64,000 nt of DNA from Catenisphaera adipataccumulans (lineage in GTDB: Bacteria > Bacillota_I > Bacilli_A > Erysipelotrichales > Erysipelotrichaceae): contig NZ_JACHHK010000008.1 in the NCBI RefSeq assembly GCF_014202755.1, forward strand, positions 1-64,000. Reading direction: 5' to 3'. Positions 23,137-35,484 of the stretch are shown piece after piece. Both the position numbers and the translations under genes were made by a program. The notes under the pieces are model-generated. The model did not search any database. It had not been told where the DNA came from and was given only the letters and a program-made list of their open reading frames with translations. Position 1 is the first letter of the stretch, and each line of letters opens with the position of its first letter.

Positions 23137-23350
23137 GCGACAGACATCAAAGGACGTCTGTCGCACGCGGTACCACCTTTGTTTATACAAAACAATTTTG
23201 TATACACTCAATTTTCTTTTAACGCAAGAATACGGCACACTCTTTCGAGGGCGATTCAAAGGGAGTAATTTCTCAGCACTTCAAAAAGCTTTCACCAGCC
23301 GCTCTTCTCTCTGCATGATGCTTTCGAAATCATATCCTTATCAACATCGA
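23137..23350 (-). promoter_or_regulatory. Threonine T-box riboswitch of thrS
   Basis: The leader carries the T-box sequence AAAGGTGGTACCGCG (minus strand of 23166-23180), followed by a terminator stem GCGACAGAC/GTCTGTCGC at 23137-23164 with a T run. An AAAGCTTT-flanked stem I with GGCTGGTGAAAGC lies near 23290. The likely specifier is ACT (Thr) at 23264-23266. Uncharged tRNA-Thr should favour the antiterminator and switch thrS on. Confidence 0.92.
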
Positions 23351-23357
23351 TACACCG

Positions 23358-28307: not shown

Positions 28308-29006
28308 ATGCAGATCATCATTGCGCCCGCCAAACAGATCAAAACCAGCGAAGACGTCCTGCCGATGTCTTCGCCGATTTTTCTTCAAGAAGCAAAATAT
28401 CTCGCTGAACAGATCCGCCGCCTGGATGACGGCCAGCTGAAAAAACTGCTGAAATGTTCAGATGCGCTGGTACAGAAGACCAAACGCCAGTATCAAAACA
28501 TAGATGCGGAACATTCACCGGCGATCATGGCCTACAGCGGTATTCAGTATCAGTATATGGCCCCGGATGTGATGACCGATGAACAGCTGCAGTATCTGCA
28601 GGATCATCTGCGGATCCTCTCCGGTTTATACGGGATCCTGCGGCCGTTCGATGCGATCGTCCCCTACCGTCTGGAAATGCAGGCAAAATTCGAACACAAA
28701 AACTTATATGCATTCTGGGGCCGGAAACTAGCCGATACACTGGAAGGACCCATCCTGAATCTGGCCAGCGAGGAATATGCTAAATGCATCCGACCGTATA
28801 AAGAACTCATTGATGTGCGGTTTCTTGAAAGTACGCACAAAGAAAAAGGGGTCTATGTTAAGATGGCGCGCGGACGTATGGTCCGATTCCTGGCTGAGGA
28901 ACAAATCGAAACCCCAGAAGACATCAAAAAATTCCGTGAATTGGATTATCGTTACGATCCATCCGAAAGTTCACGGAATCAATTCGTGTTTATTCGAAAC
29001 TCATAG
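28308..29006 (+). CDS. yaaA: YaaA-family peroxide stress protein (DUF328/UPF0246)
   Basis: The 232-residue protein has the family opening MQIIIAPAKQI, the AYSGIQYQYM block, LSGLYGILRPFDAIVPYRLEM, and LYAFWGRKL. In E. coli YaaA limits free iron damage during peroxide stress and binds DNA. It follows the zinc-sensing regulator directly, and GGAGG is present in the 3' end of that gene. Its 3' end overlaps the convergent histidine kinase gene by six bases. Proximity to feoAB fits an iron/oxidative role, but that is inference. Confidence 0.9.
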   Translation: MQIIIAPAKQIKTSEDVLPMSSPIFLQEAKYLAEQIRRLDDGQLKKLLKCSDALVQKTKRQYQNIDAEHSPAIMAYSGIQYQYMAPDVMTDEQLQYLQDHLRILSGLYGILRPFDAIVPYRLEMQAKFEHKNLYAFWGRKLADTLEGPILNLASEEYAKCIRPYKELIDVRFLESTHKEKGVYVKMARGRMVRFLAEEQIETPEDIKKFRELDYRYDPSESSRNQFVFIRNS

Positions 29007-30410
29007 TTTACGCGAGCGGCGACGCTCGTTTTTCTTTTTCGGTTTCGGTTTTGGTTTTCGATAAATCTCGAAGCATACTCCATCGTCGGTGTTAAAGCCC
29101 CGAACCAGATATTTATTGGCTTTGCAGACTTTCGCAACGATCGACAGTCCCAAACCAAAACGGCCGCCTTCGCCTTTTTCATACGGGCGGAACAGCACCT
29201 CGATGCGGTCTTCCTGCATTTTCGGACCATCATTGCTGATTTTCAAATTGTCCTCATGCAGTTCAATTTTAATGTATGACTTCGCATAGCGGAACGCATT
29301 TTCCATAATGTTTTCGATGACCACCCGCCATGCCTCCAGCAGTCCGTCGAAGAACACCTCTTCGATTTCCATCTCGATGCGGATCTCCGGCCGGATGACC
29401 TTCGTATTCAGGACCACCTGTTCGATGACTTCCTTCATATTCGTGACGACACCTTCCGCATCACTGGTCAGCAGATATTCGACCCGGTTCAGATAAAGCA
29501 GATTGTGTACTTTATCTTCCAGCCGCTGCGCATTTTCAATGATCACATCCACGCTCTTATCCAATGTCCCATAAGGATAGATCCCGTCCTTGATGGATTC
29601 CGCATAAGACTTGATGGTTGCGATCGGCGTCTTCAAATCGTGCGAAATGTTATGGATCATTTCCTCTTTGGCGGTTTCCTGCTTCTTCAGTTCATCTTTC
29701 ATCGTGACCAGGGCGTCGGCCACCTCACCGATCTCATCTTCCCGATTGATATGCAGTTCGACTTCCTTGCCCATTTTGATTTCTTCGATATATGCTTTGA
29801 TCTGATGCAGCGGATGGATGATCGAATACACCCAAAGCATCAGTGCTACGAACATCACAAAATAAGCCAGGATGACCACATCGATCGTCGAGTCGACCAG
29901 CGATTTACGCACCTGCTGCGGATAGTCGCTGTTCATAAAGCTCACAATGATCACATCATCGGAGTTGATCTTGACATACTGCAGGCGATAATAATAGTAA
30001 ACCGTATCGCTCTTTTGATACATGGCCTCATAGACCGGGTTGTCCTTGTTTAAGCCGCCGGCATCCACAAGCATTTTTTGATACAGACCTTTGGTGCCGC
30101 TGTTCTGATCCGATTTGTCAAAGAAATAAAGCGTACCATCCTGAATATAGCCATTGGTCTGCAGCGTATCGCCGACCAGTTCCCGGGCTGCCTGGCTTTC
30201 CAGCACATCTTCGTCATCTTTTAAAGCTTCCGCGATCGATTCCTGCCGGCTGGCCATCGTATCGTACATCTGGTTTGCGATCGTACGGTCGATGTTATTG
30301 GTGACAAACAGGAAAAAGAATCCGAAGAAGAATGCCACAAAGAGAAAGACCACCAGCAGGACCTGCTGTGTCAGGGAAAGTTTCTTAAATCCTTCTACGA
30401 TCTTATGCAT
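29001..30410 (-). CDS. Sensor histidine kinase
   Basis: The 469-residue membrane kinase has a first helix at about 16-37, an extracytoplasmic sensor region to about 170, and a second helix (VVILAYFVMFVALMLW). A HAMP segment follows, then an H-box HNISHDLKTPIATIKSY, an N-box VVIENIMENAF, and the G2 motif FGLGLSI. The C-terminus is rich in Lys/Arg (KPKPKPKKK). It starts one base after the response regulator stop. The signal is unknown. Position at the end of the cdaA-glmM gene string suggests an envelope input. Confidence 0.93.
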   Translation of the reverse strand: MHKIVEGFKKLSLTQQVLLVVFLFVAFFFGFFFLFVTNNIDRTIANQMYDTMASRQESIAEALKDDEDVLESQAARELVGDTLQTNGYIQDGTLYFFDKSDQNSGTKGLYQKMLVDAGGLNKDNPVYEAMYQKSDTVYYYYRLQYVKINSDDVIIVSFMNSDYPQQVRKSLVDSTIDVVILAYFVMFVALMLWVYSIIHPLHQIKAYIEEIKMGKEVELHINREDEIGEVADALVTMKDELKKQETAKEEMIHNISHDLKTPIATIKSYAESIKDGIYPYGTLDKSVDVIIENAQRLEDKVHNLLYLNRVEYLLTSDAEGVVTNMKEVIEQVVLNTKVIRPEIRIEMEIEEVFFDGLLEAWRVVIENIMENAFRYAKSYIKIELHEDNLKISNDGPKMQEDRIEVLFRPYEKGEGGRFGLGLSIVAKVCKANKYLVRGFNTDDGVCFEIYRKPKPKPKKKNERRRSRKL

Positions 30411-30411
30411 A

Positions 30412-31071
30412 TCAACCTAAACGATAGCCATAGCCATAAATCGTATGAATGTTCAAATTCGGCAGTTTCTTACGCAGACGGCGCAGCGTATCATCGACGA
30501 CGCGGTCGGAACCAAAATAGTTCTCATCCCAGACATTTTCCAGGATCTTATCCCGGCTGAACGCAATGCCCTTGTTTTTAATGAACATCATCAACAGATC
30601 AAATTCTTTGGTCGTCAGTTCAATTTCCTGATCTTCATAGAAGATCTTGCGCTGTTCTTCATCCAATTCATATCCATCGATGGAAATCCGATTGTTCTCA
30701 TCACGATAGGCCCGCTTGATGATATTGTTGACGCGCAGGACCAGTTCTTTCGGTGAGAACGGTTTTGTGATGTAGTCATCGCAGCCTTTCTCCAGTCCGA
30801 TGATCCGGTCAAATTCTTTATCGCGCGCCGACATAAAGATGACCGGGATCTCTGGTCCCTGCAGACGGATCTCTTCCAGCAGATCGAAGCCGGATTTGTC
30901 ATCAAGCATGATATCCAGGATCCATAAATGAACATCATCATCGGTCACATGTGCACTCGCTTCCTCATATGTATAATACGAGCGGACTTCATATCCTTCC
31001 TTACGAAGATATTGTGCAACTAGATTGTTCTGATCTTTTTCATCCTCAACGACACAAATAACTCGTTTCAT
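30412..31071 (-). CDS. OmpR-family response regulator
   Basis: The 219-residue regulator has a receiver domain with the acidic pocket VVEDE, phosphoacceptor Asp near 53 (ILDIMLDD), Thr/Ser MSA and Lys in TKPFSPKEL. A winged-helix Trans_Reg_C domain follows (TTKEFDLLMMF, DDTLRRLRKKL, TIYGYGYRLG). AAGGAACG precedes the start. It begins 18 bases after glmM on the same strand without a terminator between, so it is likely part of the cda-glm transcript, and it forms a pair with the following kinase. Confidence 0.95.
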   Translation of the reverse strand: MKRVICVVEDEKDQNNLVAQYLRKEGYEVRSYYTYEEASAHVTDDDVHLWILDIMLDDKSGFDLLEEIRLQGPEIPVIFMSARDKEFDRIIGLEKGCDDYITKPFSPKELVLRVNNIIKRAYRDENNRISIDGYELDEEQRKIFYEDQEIELTTKEFDLLMMFIKNKGIAFSRDKILENVWDENYFGSDRVVDDTLRRLRKKLPNLNIHTIYGYGYRLG

Positions 31072-31089: not shown

Positions 31090-32424
31090 CTAAAAATCGT
31101 GTTCGTTCATATAATTGACCACACGGCCGACATACTGCCGGCATAATTCATCCGTGCGGGCTTCGACCATCACACGAATCAGCGGTTCCGTACCGCTCGG
31201 GCGGACCAAGATCCGACCTTCATTTCCCAATTCATCCGCAACACCTTGGATCACTTCTTTCAGTGCTTCATCATCCAGGGCGTGCTGTTTGTCTTTCACG
31301 GTCACATTTTCAAGCAGCTGCGGATAAATAAACAAGCCTTCGCTCAGCTCCTGGATCGTTTTCCCCGTTGCCTTCATGATCTGCAGAAGCATCAACGCGG
31401 TAAACAAACCATCGCCGGTTTTCTCGTATTCATAGAAAATAATATGTCCGCTTTGTTCCCCGCCGATATAATAATCGTTTTTCTGCATTTCTTCAAATAC
31501 ATACTTATCACCGACCGGCGTCTGGATATAGTCGATCTTATTTGCATCCAATGCTTTATATAAACCTAAATTGGCCATGGCCGTGGTCACGCACATATTT
31601 TTATTCAGTTTATTGACCGACTTTAAATAACGTGATCCAATATACAAGATATAATCACCATTGATCAAGTTGCCGTCGCTGTCGGCCGCGATCAGACGGT
31701 CCGCATCGCCGTCAAACGCAAAACCAATATCGTAATCGTTTTCCCGCATCATCCGCTGCAAACTTTCCGGATGTGTGGAGCCGCATTTATTGTTGATGTT
31801 CAGACCGTTCGGTGAATTGTTGATGGCTTCCACCGTGGCCCCGAGCGAATCCAATGTTTCCAAAGCGGTGCTGGTCGCACTGCCGTTGGCCAGATCACAG
31901 GCGATCTTCATGCCGGTCAGATCAACCGGTACATTTTCCTTCAGCCAGGACATATAGATTTCCAGACCGTCTTCCCAGGAAACAAATTCACCAAGATCCG
32001 ATCCGGTCGCCAGATCCAGGGAAATCTCTCCGTCCATGTATTTTTCAATTTCCAGCAGCACGTTTTCTTCCATCTTTTCACCGCGATGGTTAAAAACTTT
32101 GATGCCATTATCATAATACGGATTGTGACTGGCACTGACCATGATCCCGCAGTCGAAGCGCTCCTTCTGCACCAGGTAACTGATCGAGGGCGTCGGGCAG
32201 ACACCTAATAAATACACCTGGGCTCCCATGCTCGTGGCACCGGATGCCAAACCCAGTTCAAACATATCACCGGACAGGCGGGTGTCTTTGCCAATTAAAA
32301 TCTTGGCATGCTTGCCCTTGCTGTAATACCAGCCCAGATATTGTCCGATCTTGATGGACATATCCAGGGTCAGGCCCTCATTGGCACGTCCCCGGACACC
32401 GTCGGTTCCAAAATATTTCCCCAT
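31090..32424 (-). CDS. glmM: Phosphoglucosamine mutase GlmM
   Basis: The 444-residue enzyme converts glucosamine-6-phosphate to glucosamine-1-phosphate for UDP-GlcNAc and peptidoglycan. It shows the opening GKYFGTDGVRGRAN, the phosphoserine loop VSASHNPYYDNGIK near 100, the metal loop AFDGDADRLI and the sugar/phosphate loop RPSGTEPLIRVM. It follows cdaR by 12 bases. In other Firmicutes GlmM binds and inhibits CdaA, so this cluster couples c-di-AMP to wall synthesis. Confidence 0.97.
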   Translation of the reverse strand: MGKYFGTDGVRGRANEGLTLDMSIKIGQYLGWYYSKGKHAKILIGKDTRLSGDMFELGLASGATSMGAQVYLLGVCPTPSISYLVQKERFDCGIMVSASHNPYYDNGIKVFNHRGEKMEENVLLEIEKYMDGEISLDLATGSDLGEFVSWEDGLEIYMSWLKENVPVDLTGMKIACDLANGSATSTALETLDSLGATVEAINNSPNGLNINNKCGSTHPESLQRMMRENDYDIGFAFDGDADRLIAADSDGNLINGDYILYIGSRYLKSVNKLNKNMCVTTAMANLGLYKALDANKIDYIQTPVGDKYVFEEMQKNDYYIGGEQSGHIIFYEYEKTGDGLFTALMLLQIMKATGKTIQELSEGLFIYPQLLENVTVKDKQHALDDEALKEVIQGVADELGNEGRILVRPSGTEPLIRVMVEARTDELCRQYVGRVVNYMNEHDF

Positions 32425-32436
32425 TTTATTGCTCCT

Positions 32437-33207
32437 CTATTCATCTGATTTGGCCGAAACGGTCACATGGATCGTTTTCGGCGAAAAATCCACATTGACT
32501 GTGTTGCCGTCTGAATCATAGGCAACCAGTTTTGCATCTGTTTCAAAGCTTCCTGTCTGGCCGGTCGCATCCACCAATGCCTTGACCGTCCGGATAGAAT
32601 TGATCTGATCCGTGCTGCCGGTCACCTTGACCGTACTGCGTTTTAATTTCGGTGATTCAAAATCCGAAGACTTCTGTCCCGAACTTAACAACAGTTCAGC
32701 AGTGACCGTAAATTGCTTGGTGACTTTTTTCTGTATATCTGCCGTCACCGAAGACGGACTGATCGACGCATCAATATCGTTCGGCAGATTTTCAACGCTC
32801 AGCTCGACTTCCGTCTGACCGACACCGTAGCTTCGCAGATCGGCCGTCACTTTTACATCATTTTGTTTACGGAATACATCAATATCCGTCGCATTGCCGG
32901 TCAGTGTAACAGTTACGACATCCGGCACACCGCTGACCTCGTATTCATCCGAGTCGTACAGCGTTTCCACCGGTACATTGCTGAGTTCTACCGACGTCTG
33001 CGAACTTTTTGTCAGGCGCATATTGATGTCCTGATAGTTCACCGCAGCACAAATGCCGATGGCTGCTACCAACGATACAATAATGGAACCGGATTTTGAA
33101 AAAATGATCCGGTCAAACAATTTGCTTAATTTATCAAACAAAAAGCGCAGGAATTCCTGAAGTTTCTGCAGGGATCCGGCTGAAGAATGATCATCGGGTC
33201 TTGCCAT
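32437..33207 (-). CDS. cdaR: CdaA regulator CdaR (YbbR-domain protein)
   Basis: The 256-residue protein has a single N-terminal membrane anchor (SGSIIVSLVAAIGICAAVNY, about 40-59) and an extracellular part with two to three YbbR repeats (NVPVETLYD, VPDVVTVTLTGNATDID, and a second PSSVTADIQKKV unit). CdaR binds and modulates CdaA at the membrane. I chose the ATG at 33207 because GGGAGGGAAG lies just before it; the longer frame runs into cdaA. It overlaps cdaA by 17 bases. Confidence 0.92.
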   Translation of the reverse strand: MARPDDHSSAGSLQKLQEFLRFLFDKLSKLFDRIIFSKSGSIIVSLVAAIGICAAVNYQDINMRLTKSSQTSVELSNVPVETLYDSDEYEVSGVPDVVTVTLTGNATDIDVFRKQNDVKVTADLRSYGVGQTEVELSVENLPNDIDASISPSSVTADIQKKVTKQFTVTAELLLSSGQKSSDFESPKLKRSTVKVTGSTDQINSIRTVKALVDATGQTGSFETDAKLVAYDSDGNTVNVDFSPKTIHVTVSAKSDE

Positions 33208-34126
33208 TTTTCTTCCCTCCCTGCTTGTCATTATAGAGATCCACCACACTGATCGGCAGGATACGATCATCCGGTTTGGATTTTTTATCCGTCTTTTTCG
33301 ATCGGCTGATGGAAAAATTTCTTGCTGTTTTAAAGAACGTATTATCGACGACCGGCACGGTATCATCAATGAGCATATTCTTTAAATAACGGCGCAGACC
33401 TTCGGCCGGATATTGAATCAACTGTCCCTTGACAGCGACCGAGATTGCGCCGGTTTCTTCACTGACGACGATCGTGATAGAATCGGTAATTTCACTAATG
33501 CCGACGGCTGCCCGATGGCGGGCACCGTATTTGCTCGGCAGATCTTTGGTGGTCGGCGGAAAATAGGCCGCCGCACAGGCAATTTTATTTCCCTGAATAA
33601 TGACAGCACCATCATGCATCGGTGTGCCGTATTGAAAAATCGTCTGCAGCAGTTCTGCCGAGACCACTGAATCCATACGGATCCCCGTGTTGACATAATC
33701 CGTCAGCTGCTGGGTCTGCTGGATCGTAATTAAAGCGCCGGTTTTCGTGCGCGACATTTCATCGCACGCTTCCACCAGCTCATTGATCATATGTTCATAT
33801 TCTCCGTTGGTCAGCTCTGCCCAATGCAGCGGGGATGAGGTCCGTCCGAGCTTTTCCAAGACGCCGCGGATCTCCGGCTGAAAGACGATGATGATGGCCA
33901 CCACGCCCCACTGGAGAAATAGATTCATAATGTAACTCAAGGCGTTCAATCCAAGCAGGACCGAGAGTCCTTTCACGATCAATAAGATAATGACCCCTTT
34001 AAAAATTTGGATCGTCCGCGTGTTGTTCCGGACCAGGCGCAGTCCGGCATAAATCAAACCCCATAATACAAGAATATCAACGATCCATCGAATAATATAG
34101 GGCACGTCGGAAATCGAAAGTTCCAT
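33191..34126 (-). CDS. cdaA: Diadenylate cyclase CdaA (c-di-AMP synthase)
   Basis: The 311-residue enzyme makes cyclic di-AMP from two ATP. Three N-terminal membrane helices (about residues 10-90) are followed by a DAC domain with the catalytic MHDGAVII motif and GARHRAAVGISE, holding the RHR ATP-binding motif. The C-terminal tail after residue 270 is basic. AAGGGGGCTGAG precedes the start. The gene comes 18 bases after the HAD gene and heads the conserved cdaA-cdaR-glmM set. c-di-AMP controls potassium and osmolyte uptake and wall stress. Confidence 0.96.
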   Translation of the reverse strand: MELSISDVPYIIRWIVDILVLWGLIYAGLRLVRNNTRTIQIFKGVIILLIVKGLSVLLGLNALSYIMNLFLQWGVVAIIIVFQPEIRGVLEKLGRTSSPLHWAELTNGEYEHMINELVEACDEMSRTKTGALITIQQTQQLTDYVNTGIRMDSVVSAELLQTIFQYGTPMHDGAVIIQGNKIACAAAYFPPTTKDLPSKYGARHRAAVGISEITDSITIVVSEETGAISVAVKGQLIQYPAEGLRRYLKNMLIDDTVPVVDNTFFKTARNFSISRSKKTDKKSKPDDRILPISVVDLYNDKQGGKKNGKTR

Positions 34127-34144: not shown

Positions 34145-34912
34145 TTATTCGATATGACTCAAAAATTCACTGACAGAAATAAATGTCTGCTTTGCATGTG
34201 AAATGACTTCTTCCGGCGCTGTAGAAAGCACCGCACTGTTTTCGACCATATCCAGCATCGGAATATCATTGTACGAATCACCCATCGCATACATGTCTTC
34301 ATCATCAACATCTGTATACAGCTGCAAAAACTGCAGACTGGTCGCCTTTGATACATAAGACGGAACCACATCGACGAATACTTCGTTCGGATATGCGTTG
34401 ACCAGACCGGCAAAATGGTGATTCATTTCTTTCGCAAAACGCAGCGCGGCATCTTCGCTTTCCAGCGTAATGCTGATCTGCGTATATTCGCCCAGATCCA
34501 TCACTTCTTCTTCCGTCATATCCGGTGCCAGATGCATATTGTCATAATCATAAATTTCCGGATTCACGACCACTTTATGGCGGTGAATTCCGTCATCGGC
34601 CACAAAGGCAGCGATGCCGTCGGTGACTTTGGCAATATACATGATGTCCAGACTGGTCACATAATCCAGGTAGTTGGACTGCAGGATATGTCCGGTCTCA
34701 TCAAAGATCATACCGCCGTTATTGGTGATCAAATAATCAACAGGGATATTAAATTTTTCTATTTCTTTATCGATGGAATCTTTGGACCGTCCCGTATCGA
34801 TCACATAAAGATTGCCTTCGCTTCGCCATTTTTCAATAGCTTTTAAATCTTCTTCCATGACGTTGCCTCCGTATTGCAGGATTCCGTCATAGCCGGTAAC
34901 TAATAATTTCAT
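34145..34912 (-). CDS. HAD-superfamily (Cof-like) protein with missing nucleophile
   Basis: The 255-residue protein has the Cof-type HAD layout. Motif II (VIDTGRS, Thr40), the motif III lysine (SKATSLQF) and motif IV (AMGDSYNDIPML) are intact. Motif I reads VTGYDGIL instead of the usual DxDGT, so residue 7, the phosphate-accepting Asp, is Gly (codon GGC; GAC would restore it). It may be inactive as a phosphatase or act as a sensor. AGGAG precedes the start, and a good promoter lies upstream. It heads a same-strand run with cdaA, cdaR, glmM and a two-component system, without visible internal terminators. Confidence 0.88.
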   Translation of the reverse strand: MKLLVTGYDGILQYGGNVMEEDLKAIEKWRSEGNLYVIDTGRSKDSIDKEIEKFNIPVDYLITNNGGMIFDETGHILQSNYLDYVTSLDIMYIAKVTDGIAAFVADDGIHRHKVVVNPEIYDYDNMHLAPDMTEEEVMDLGEYTQISITLESEDAALRFAKEMNHHFAGLVNAYPNEVFVDVVPSYVSKATSLQFLQLYTDVDDEDMYAMGDSYNDIPMLDMVENSAVLSTAPEEVISHAKQTFISVSEFLSHIE

Positions 34913-34934: not shown

Positions 34935-34963
34935 ATTTTAGCACATCATCTAAGTGATTCCAA
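34935..34963 (-). promoter_or_regulatory. Promoter of the HAD-cdaA-cdaR-glmM run
   Basis: TTGGAA, 17 bases, then TAAAAT preceded by TGC (extended -10), about 22 bases before the HAD start. The terminator of the next unit upstream lies directly behind it. Confidence 0.65.
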
Positions 34964-34981
34964 TAAGACCGGTCTATATGA

Positions 34982-35004
34982 AAAGCGGGCATTCCGCCCG
35001 CTTT
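34982..35004 (-). terminator. Terminator of the cryptic unit upstream
   Basis: An AAAGCGGGC/GCCCGCTTT hairpin followed by TTTTCATAT on the minus strand. No recognisable gene ends here, so it marks the end of the unexplained transcript from 35457. Confidence 0.8.
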
Positions 35005-35224: not shown

Positions 35225-35452
35225 TCAAGTCTCAAGGAATGTTTCTTCCGGATCAATCAGAACGAAATGGTTCTTTTTTGTTCCAGCCTCACATTTGGAG
35301 CCTTCTCTCCATAGCTTCAGAATCACCGGAGTCCCCGGCATTATGATATTGTCATGCTCCCACCGCTTTCTTACGTATAGAACGTATGATTTCTTTGAAA
35401 AGGAATGACCTTCTTTTTCGCCTTCTTTATGAAGCCTCATCCTTTTCTTCAT
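35225..35452 (-). CDS. Possible small protein at the start of the cryptic unit
   Basis: A 75-codon frame starts at an ATG four bases after the -10 box and ends ETFLET. The product is basic at its start (MKKRMRLHKEGEKEG), and I do not recognise it. No ribosome binding site precedes the ATG, and a second in-frame ATG at 35440 is equally weak. It could be a real leaderless small protein, a peptide linked to the neighbouring LytTR regulator, or the remains of a longer gene. Confidence 0.3.
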   Translation of the reverse strand: MKKRMRLHKEGEKEGHSFSKKSYVLYVRKRWEHDNIIMPGTPVILKLWREGSKCEAGTKKNHFVLIDPEETFLET

Positions 35453-35456
35453 CTTC

Positions 35457-35484
35457 ATTATAACGGATATACAGAACATTTCAA
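35457..35484 (-). promoter_or_regulatory. Promoter of the cryptic unit
   Basis: TTGAAA, 16 bases, TATAAT on the minus strand, 35-60 bases downstream of the LytTR gene stop. Confidence 0.6.

Follow-up and report, generated by a model that had tools for sequence, protein, structure and literature searches.

A Cof-type HAD protein with glycine in place of the nucleophilic aspartate, encoded directly upstream of cdaA in Catenisphaera adipataccumulans

Enzyme superfamilies commonly include inactive members. The first aspartate of motif I in HAD phosphatases serves both as the nucleophile and as a metal ligand, and its replacement normally abolishes turnover, as has been established for the superfamily. 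A phosphatase-like protein may nevertheless be kept in a non-catalytic role, for which Tps3 and Tsl1 of yeast, without the TPP catalytic residues, provide an analogy. These HAD/TPP-like polypeptides are described as putative regulatory proteins (PMC9635654). In the Firmicutes, the genes for the diadenylate cyclase CdaA, for CdaR and for the phosphoglucosamine mutase GlmM form a cdaA-cdaR-glmM operon, and GlmM acts as an inhibitor of CdaA (PMC8573169). The window analysed here, a stretch of 64,000 nucleotides of C. adipataccumulans (positions 1 to 64,000 of contig NZ_JACHHK010000008.1, assembly GCF_014202755.1), contains the same three genes in the same order, but with an additional gene for a HAD protein directly upstream of cdaA (Table 1). 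No description of a HAD gene next to cdaA was found in the limited library of literature searched, nor did a search of it on pseudo-HADs return anything on this gene.

The HAD gene is the first of a minus-strand string, HAD-cdaA-cdaR-glmM, which is followed by the genes for an OmpR-type regulator and a HAMP kinase. A gap of 18 nt separates it from cdaA, which follows on the same strand; its cdaA-linked orthologues likewise stand immediately before cdaA. The placement at the head of the cda genes, made in the original prediction without mention of the strand, is correct. An AGGAG Shine-Dalgarno sequence lies 5' of the ATG, and the plus strand over the same interval contains no open frame. It is plausible that the transcript begins with the HAD gene, the promoter matches upstream of it being barely above those in shuffled sequences. 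The GC-rich inverted repeat further upstream, which is absent from the output of the scan that yielded the promoter candidate, would separate the HAD operon from a LytTR gene, judging by eye. Between the LytTR and HAD genes, an 84-aa ORF (35225-35479, minus strand), close to which an 11/12 promoter match is found (35484-35457), has no relative in the neighbouring loci and is probably not a gene. At the other end of the string, the response regulator displays 81-95% identity across genera, compared with about 43-63% (77% in one case) for the kinase, and is far more conserved than the kinase or cdaA, which marks it as a regulator under tight constraint and in linkage with the cda operon. Elsewhere in the window, a T-box leader (RF00230, 99.6 bits) is located at 23147-23353 on the minus strand.

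Table 1. Features of the HAD-cda locus, with positions in the 64,000-nucleotide window
Feature	Position	Strand	Evidence or remark
HAD-IIB (Cof-type) protein gene	34145-34912	minus	255-aa open frame, Pfam Hydrolase_3, alignment, AlphaFold2 model
Codons 5-13 with motif I	34874-34900	minus	GTT ACC GGC TAT GAC GGA ATC CTG CAA; Gly7 is GGC
cdaA, diadenylate cyclase	33191-34126	minus	Pfam DAC 1.7e-41, CdaA_N 1.2e-7; DGA and RHR motifs present
cdaR (YbbR repeats)	32437-33300	minus	Pfam YbbR 3.4e-18; start codon provisional
glmM, phosphoglucosamine mutase	31090-32424	minus	Pfam PGM_PMM I-IV
OmpR-type response regulator	30412-31071	minus	adjoins glmM in nearly all loci with a readable flank
HAMP histidine kinase, paired with the OmpR-type regulator	29001-30410	minus	
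Candidate extended -10 promoter TTGGAA-17-TAAAAT, just 5' of the HAD gene	34935-34963	minus	consensus match only
GC-rich inverted repeat AAAGCGGGC-GGAAT-GCCCGCTTTTC, terminator-like	34978-35003	minus	by eye; short T run

The HAD protein (N-terminus MKLLVTGYDGIL) carries a motif I that reads VTGYDGIL (V-T-G7-Y-D9-G-I11-L), in which Gly7 (D7G) occupies the place of the HAD nucleophile in the alignment, so that G7-Y8-D9 replaces the D-Y-D form of the DxD signature of an active phosphatase. The remaining motifs are present in the alignment, with motif II as T40-G41-R42, motif III as S188-K189 and motif IV as G211-D212-S-Y-N215-D216; the serine or threonine, the lysine and the acidic pair of an active enzyme are thus provided by Thr40, Lys189, Asp212 and Asp216. 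The pocket residues D9, T40, R42, N64, N65, D107, G108, R111, Q145, N176, D181, K189, D212, N215 and D216 are retained. While the reading of motif I, of the second aspartate and of motifs II to IV given by the original prediction was accurate, its proposal that the nucleophile alone had been lost was not, since A5V and T11I also alter motif I, and conserved cap positions carry S102A, N106D, Y125N and V147S. Deprived of Asp7, the protein cannot form the aspartyl-phosphate and, by the chemistry of the superfamily, would almost certainly not be a working phosphatase; it is predicted to be catalytically dead.

The fold appears to be kept. The protein matches Pfam PF08282 (Hydrolase_3) over its full length (2.7e-32, 112.9 bits against a threshold of 20.9) and exceeds the cut-off of HAD-SF-IIB (TIGR01484; 50.4 against 41.8). 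Its score for the Cof subfamily (TIGR00099) is 107.3 bits, below the cut-off of 137; five orthologues that keep the aspartate, including that of G012, also score below it (111-133), and for this reason the cut-off says nothing on inactivation. The AlphaFold2 model has a mean pLDDT of 95.8 and matches HAD-IIB structures over residues 1-255 in Foldseek and VIA-align, displaying the Rossmann-like core with a C2B cap. Its closest folds are Cof-type sugar phosphatases, with which it shares the whole-chain architecture (BT4131, 1ymq; PfHAD1, 4qjb and 4zev; YidA, 1rkq; VIA Z 29.6-29.9, rmsd 1.9-2.4) as well as motifs II-IV and the cap, and from which it differs in the glycine at the nucleophile position and in the Cof score. 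Since the alignment underlying the model consisted of orthologues whose motifs are intact, a mildly damaged protein would also be given a good model. The best PDB match in a phmmer search is chain 4zev of PfHAD1, which has alanine at the nucleophile position and the title of which names bound mannose-6-phosphate, indicating that a HAD protein without the aspartate can in principle hold a sugar phosphate.

The distribution of the substitution was examined in 272 genomes of the same GTDB family, in which the genus is represented by this species only, with a single genome. Positions of HAD and cdaA genes were compared and the loci (L097-L135 among them) then read, which revealed a HAD gene immediately before cdaA, with a readable N-terminus, in 43 further genomes belonging to 22 other genera; an additional linked orthologue (G105), cut off by a contig end, is not included. 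Asp7 and Thr11 are present in all 43 and Ala5 in 42. The aspartate is also found in the unlinked HAD relatives checked, mainly of genus g31, and in all 15 remaining full-length HAD-IIB genes of the genome. One unlinked relative (L094, G084:C92:2087-2823) is split into two frames, of 156 aa and the remainder, and is possibly a pseudogene. In the genomes examined with flanks, cdaR and glmM follow HAD and cdaA; many cdaA frames in the family span 400-550 aa compared with about 310 (for example in G037, G042 and G110), which suggests cdaA-cdaR fusions or long extensions. In an order-wide profile search, the orthologue group scored at least 300 bits, the next relatives at most 225 and the protein studied here 350.

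On this sequence evidence, the loss of Asp7 is private to this species, and the protein is probably not a conserved sensor but an enzyme that is dead or has taken on another use. A conserved pseudoenzyme is ruled out by the aspartate of all orthologues, and misplacement of the gene or a wrong start by the agreement of start and synteny with them. The original prediction, which itself held that orthologues with the aspartate would refute it, had proposed that the protein may sense a phosphorylated metabolite or nucleotide and modulate c-di-AMP synthesis. As a conserved property of the family, a non-catalytic sensor is excluded by the 43 linked orthologues, and all that is left of the proposal is a novelty confined to this species. 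The best other relative in the genome is only 27% identical, which indicates that the HAD gene has no recent duplicate, and no takeover by an in-genome paralogue was detected. A scan of genome contigs with the HAD protein returned distant HAD proteins only and no other strain.

Whether the protein as a whole has diverged was assessed at conserved columns and slow sites. Among the columns with at least 93% conservation in the 43 orthologues, it has nine changes (A5V, D7G, T11I, F36Y, S102A, N106D, Y125N, V147S and G192S), the orthologue of a related genus (G012) has 12 and the next highest count is six. Site rates were then estimated without the tested sequence, and the slowest 20% (51 sites) were compared in 12 lineages with uncorrected P values. 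The present species (G000 in trees and rate tests) has ten changes against 4.6 expected (Poisson P 0.019), G012 nine against 5.0 and G037 ten against 6.0; the other nine lineages all gave P > 0.3. On the other hand, 41 of the 51 sites are unchanged in the present species, among them almost all of the metal and phosphate pocket, compared with roughly 26 expected under full neutrality for a branch of that length. A gross pseudogene is ruled out by this retention, together with the intact frame, the ribosome-binding site and the high-confidence fold.

The slow-site changes of G012 fall in another part of the active site (G10R, N64G, N65C, D107E, G108E and R111S). Its protein (L095:2250-3014) keeps Asp7, yet reads DFDRTL in motif I, GCGS in place of NNGG and NEETGS in place of NDGxxR, a second case of an active site altered independently. 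In G050, these places are intact except for S43A and G67A. In trees with a FastTree topology and branch lengths fitted on it, the present species, G050 and G012 form one clade, both in the concatenated and in the HAD tree, its inner order being weakly supported in the former. Their terminal HAD branches measure 0.66, 0.25 and 0.71, respectively, and their cdaA branches are alike (0.36, 0.31 and 0.32). Tajima relative-rate tests of the present species against G050 are weak and not consistently significant (chi2 0 to 5.3), and a simple relative-rate test is significant for G012. The HAD branches of G053 and G037 are similarly long, with the nucleophile kept.

The reading that we favour, with a probability of about 0.55, is that of a Cof-type HAD-IIB phosphatase that has lost its catalytic function under relaxed constraint and has been kept folded at the head of the operon. 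The ancestor would have been an active phosphatase heading the cdaA-cdaR-glmM operon in part of the family; the linkage to cdaA is observed, and the activity of the orthologues is suggested by their intact motifs. Catalysis would have become dispensable in this clade, and constraint on the active site would have relaxed in this part of the tree, with motif I and the cap altered further in this species and other active-site positions in G012; the change of the aspartate codon to GGC has removed the phosphate-accepting residue in this species. That the frame is open and the fold intact may reflect a fairly recent loss of catalysis. Alternatively, the first gene of an essential operon, 18 nt before cdaA, may tolerate missense mutations but not nonsense or frameshift mutations, since truncation of the HAD gene would be expected to harm expression of cdaA and glmM. 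The retention of most slow sites counts against relaxed loss and also fits selection for ligand binding; the weak Tajima tests and the long G053 and G037 branches with the nucleophile kept are further points against it.

Selection for binding is the essence of a less likely explanation, according to which the dead protein still binds either a phosphorylated metabolite or, by direct contact, CdaA or GlmM, and adjusts the synthesis of c-di-AMP in this species only. The retained fold and pocket residues, the conserved operon position, the PfHAD1 precedent and the role of GlmM, encoded in the same operon, as a known protein inhibitor of CdaA (PMC8573169) are all compatible with it, and a sensor is conceivable in view of the otherwise retained phosphate and metal pocket. 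However, the aspartate of all orthologues gives no sign of sensing as an ancestral role, the cap signature is changed at four positions and the slow sites show an excess of change; moreover, the text of the paper on the S. mutans DacA interactome contains no Cof, haloacid or phosphatase protein, although S. mutans need not have the gene. Tps3 and Tsl1 have a conserved role, whereas the loss described here is private to one species, with no partner in evidence. The suggestion of the original prediction that ligand binding is kept without turnover is therefore allowed by the fold and by the metal and phosphate residues, while the cap changes make it less likely that the ancestral ligand has simply been retained. 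In sum, a pseudoenzyme that senses a ligand and acts on CdaA or GlmM is possible but unsupported. It is quite unlikely that codon 7 reflects a sequencing or assembly error, or a mutation confined to the one isolate sequenced, in a species with a normal phosphatase: the genus is represented here by one genome, the draft assembly comprises 14 contigs and GAC to GGC is a single transition, but A5V and T11I lie within four codons of codon 7 and the cap is altered too, which a lone error would not produce. Least likely of all is residual activity by another route, with Asp9 or water as the nucleophile; Asp9 and the motif IV metal ligands do remain, but Asp9 is the sole other acidic residue near position 7 in motif I, and HAD enzymes do not normally survive replacement of the first aspartate.

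By itself, a single residue lost in a single species makes a modest finding, and the better-supported novelty lies in the conserved pairing of an intact HAD phosphatase gene with cdaA rather than in the dead copy. A more far-reaching proposal, which we consider unlikely, is that the HAD protein, co-inherited with cdaA in about 23 genera, is an uncharacterised component of c-di-AMP or amino-sugar control that has become, in this species, a regulator of CdaA or GlmM that only binds ligand and does not catalyse. Should the substrate of the intact orthologues be an amino-sugar phosphate or a nucleotide phosphate, their linkage to cdaA would add an enzyme to the few proteins around CdaA, namely CdaR and GlmM, and the dead copy would then represent a natural catalysis-null allele that separates binding or scaffolding from turnover.
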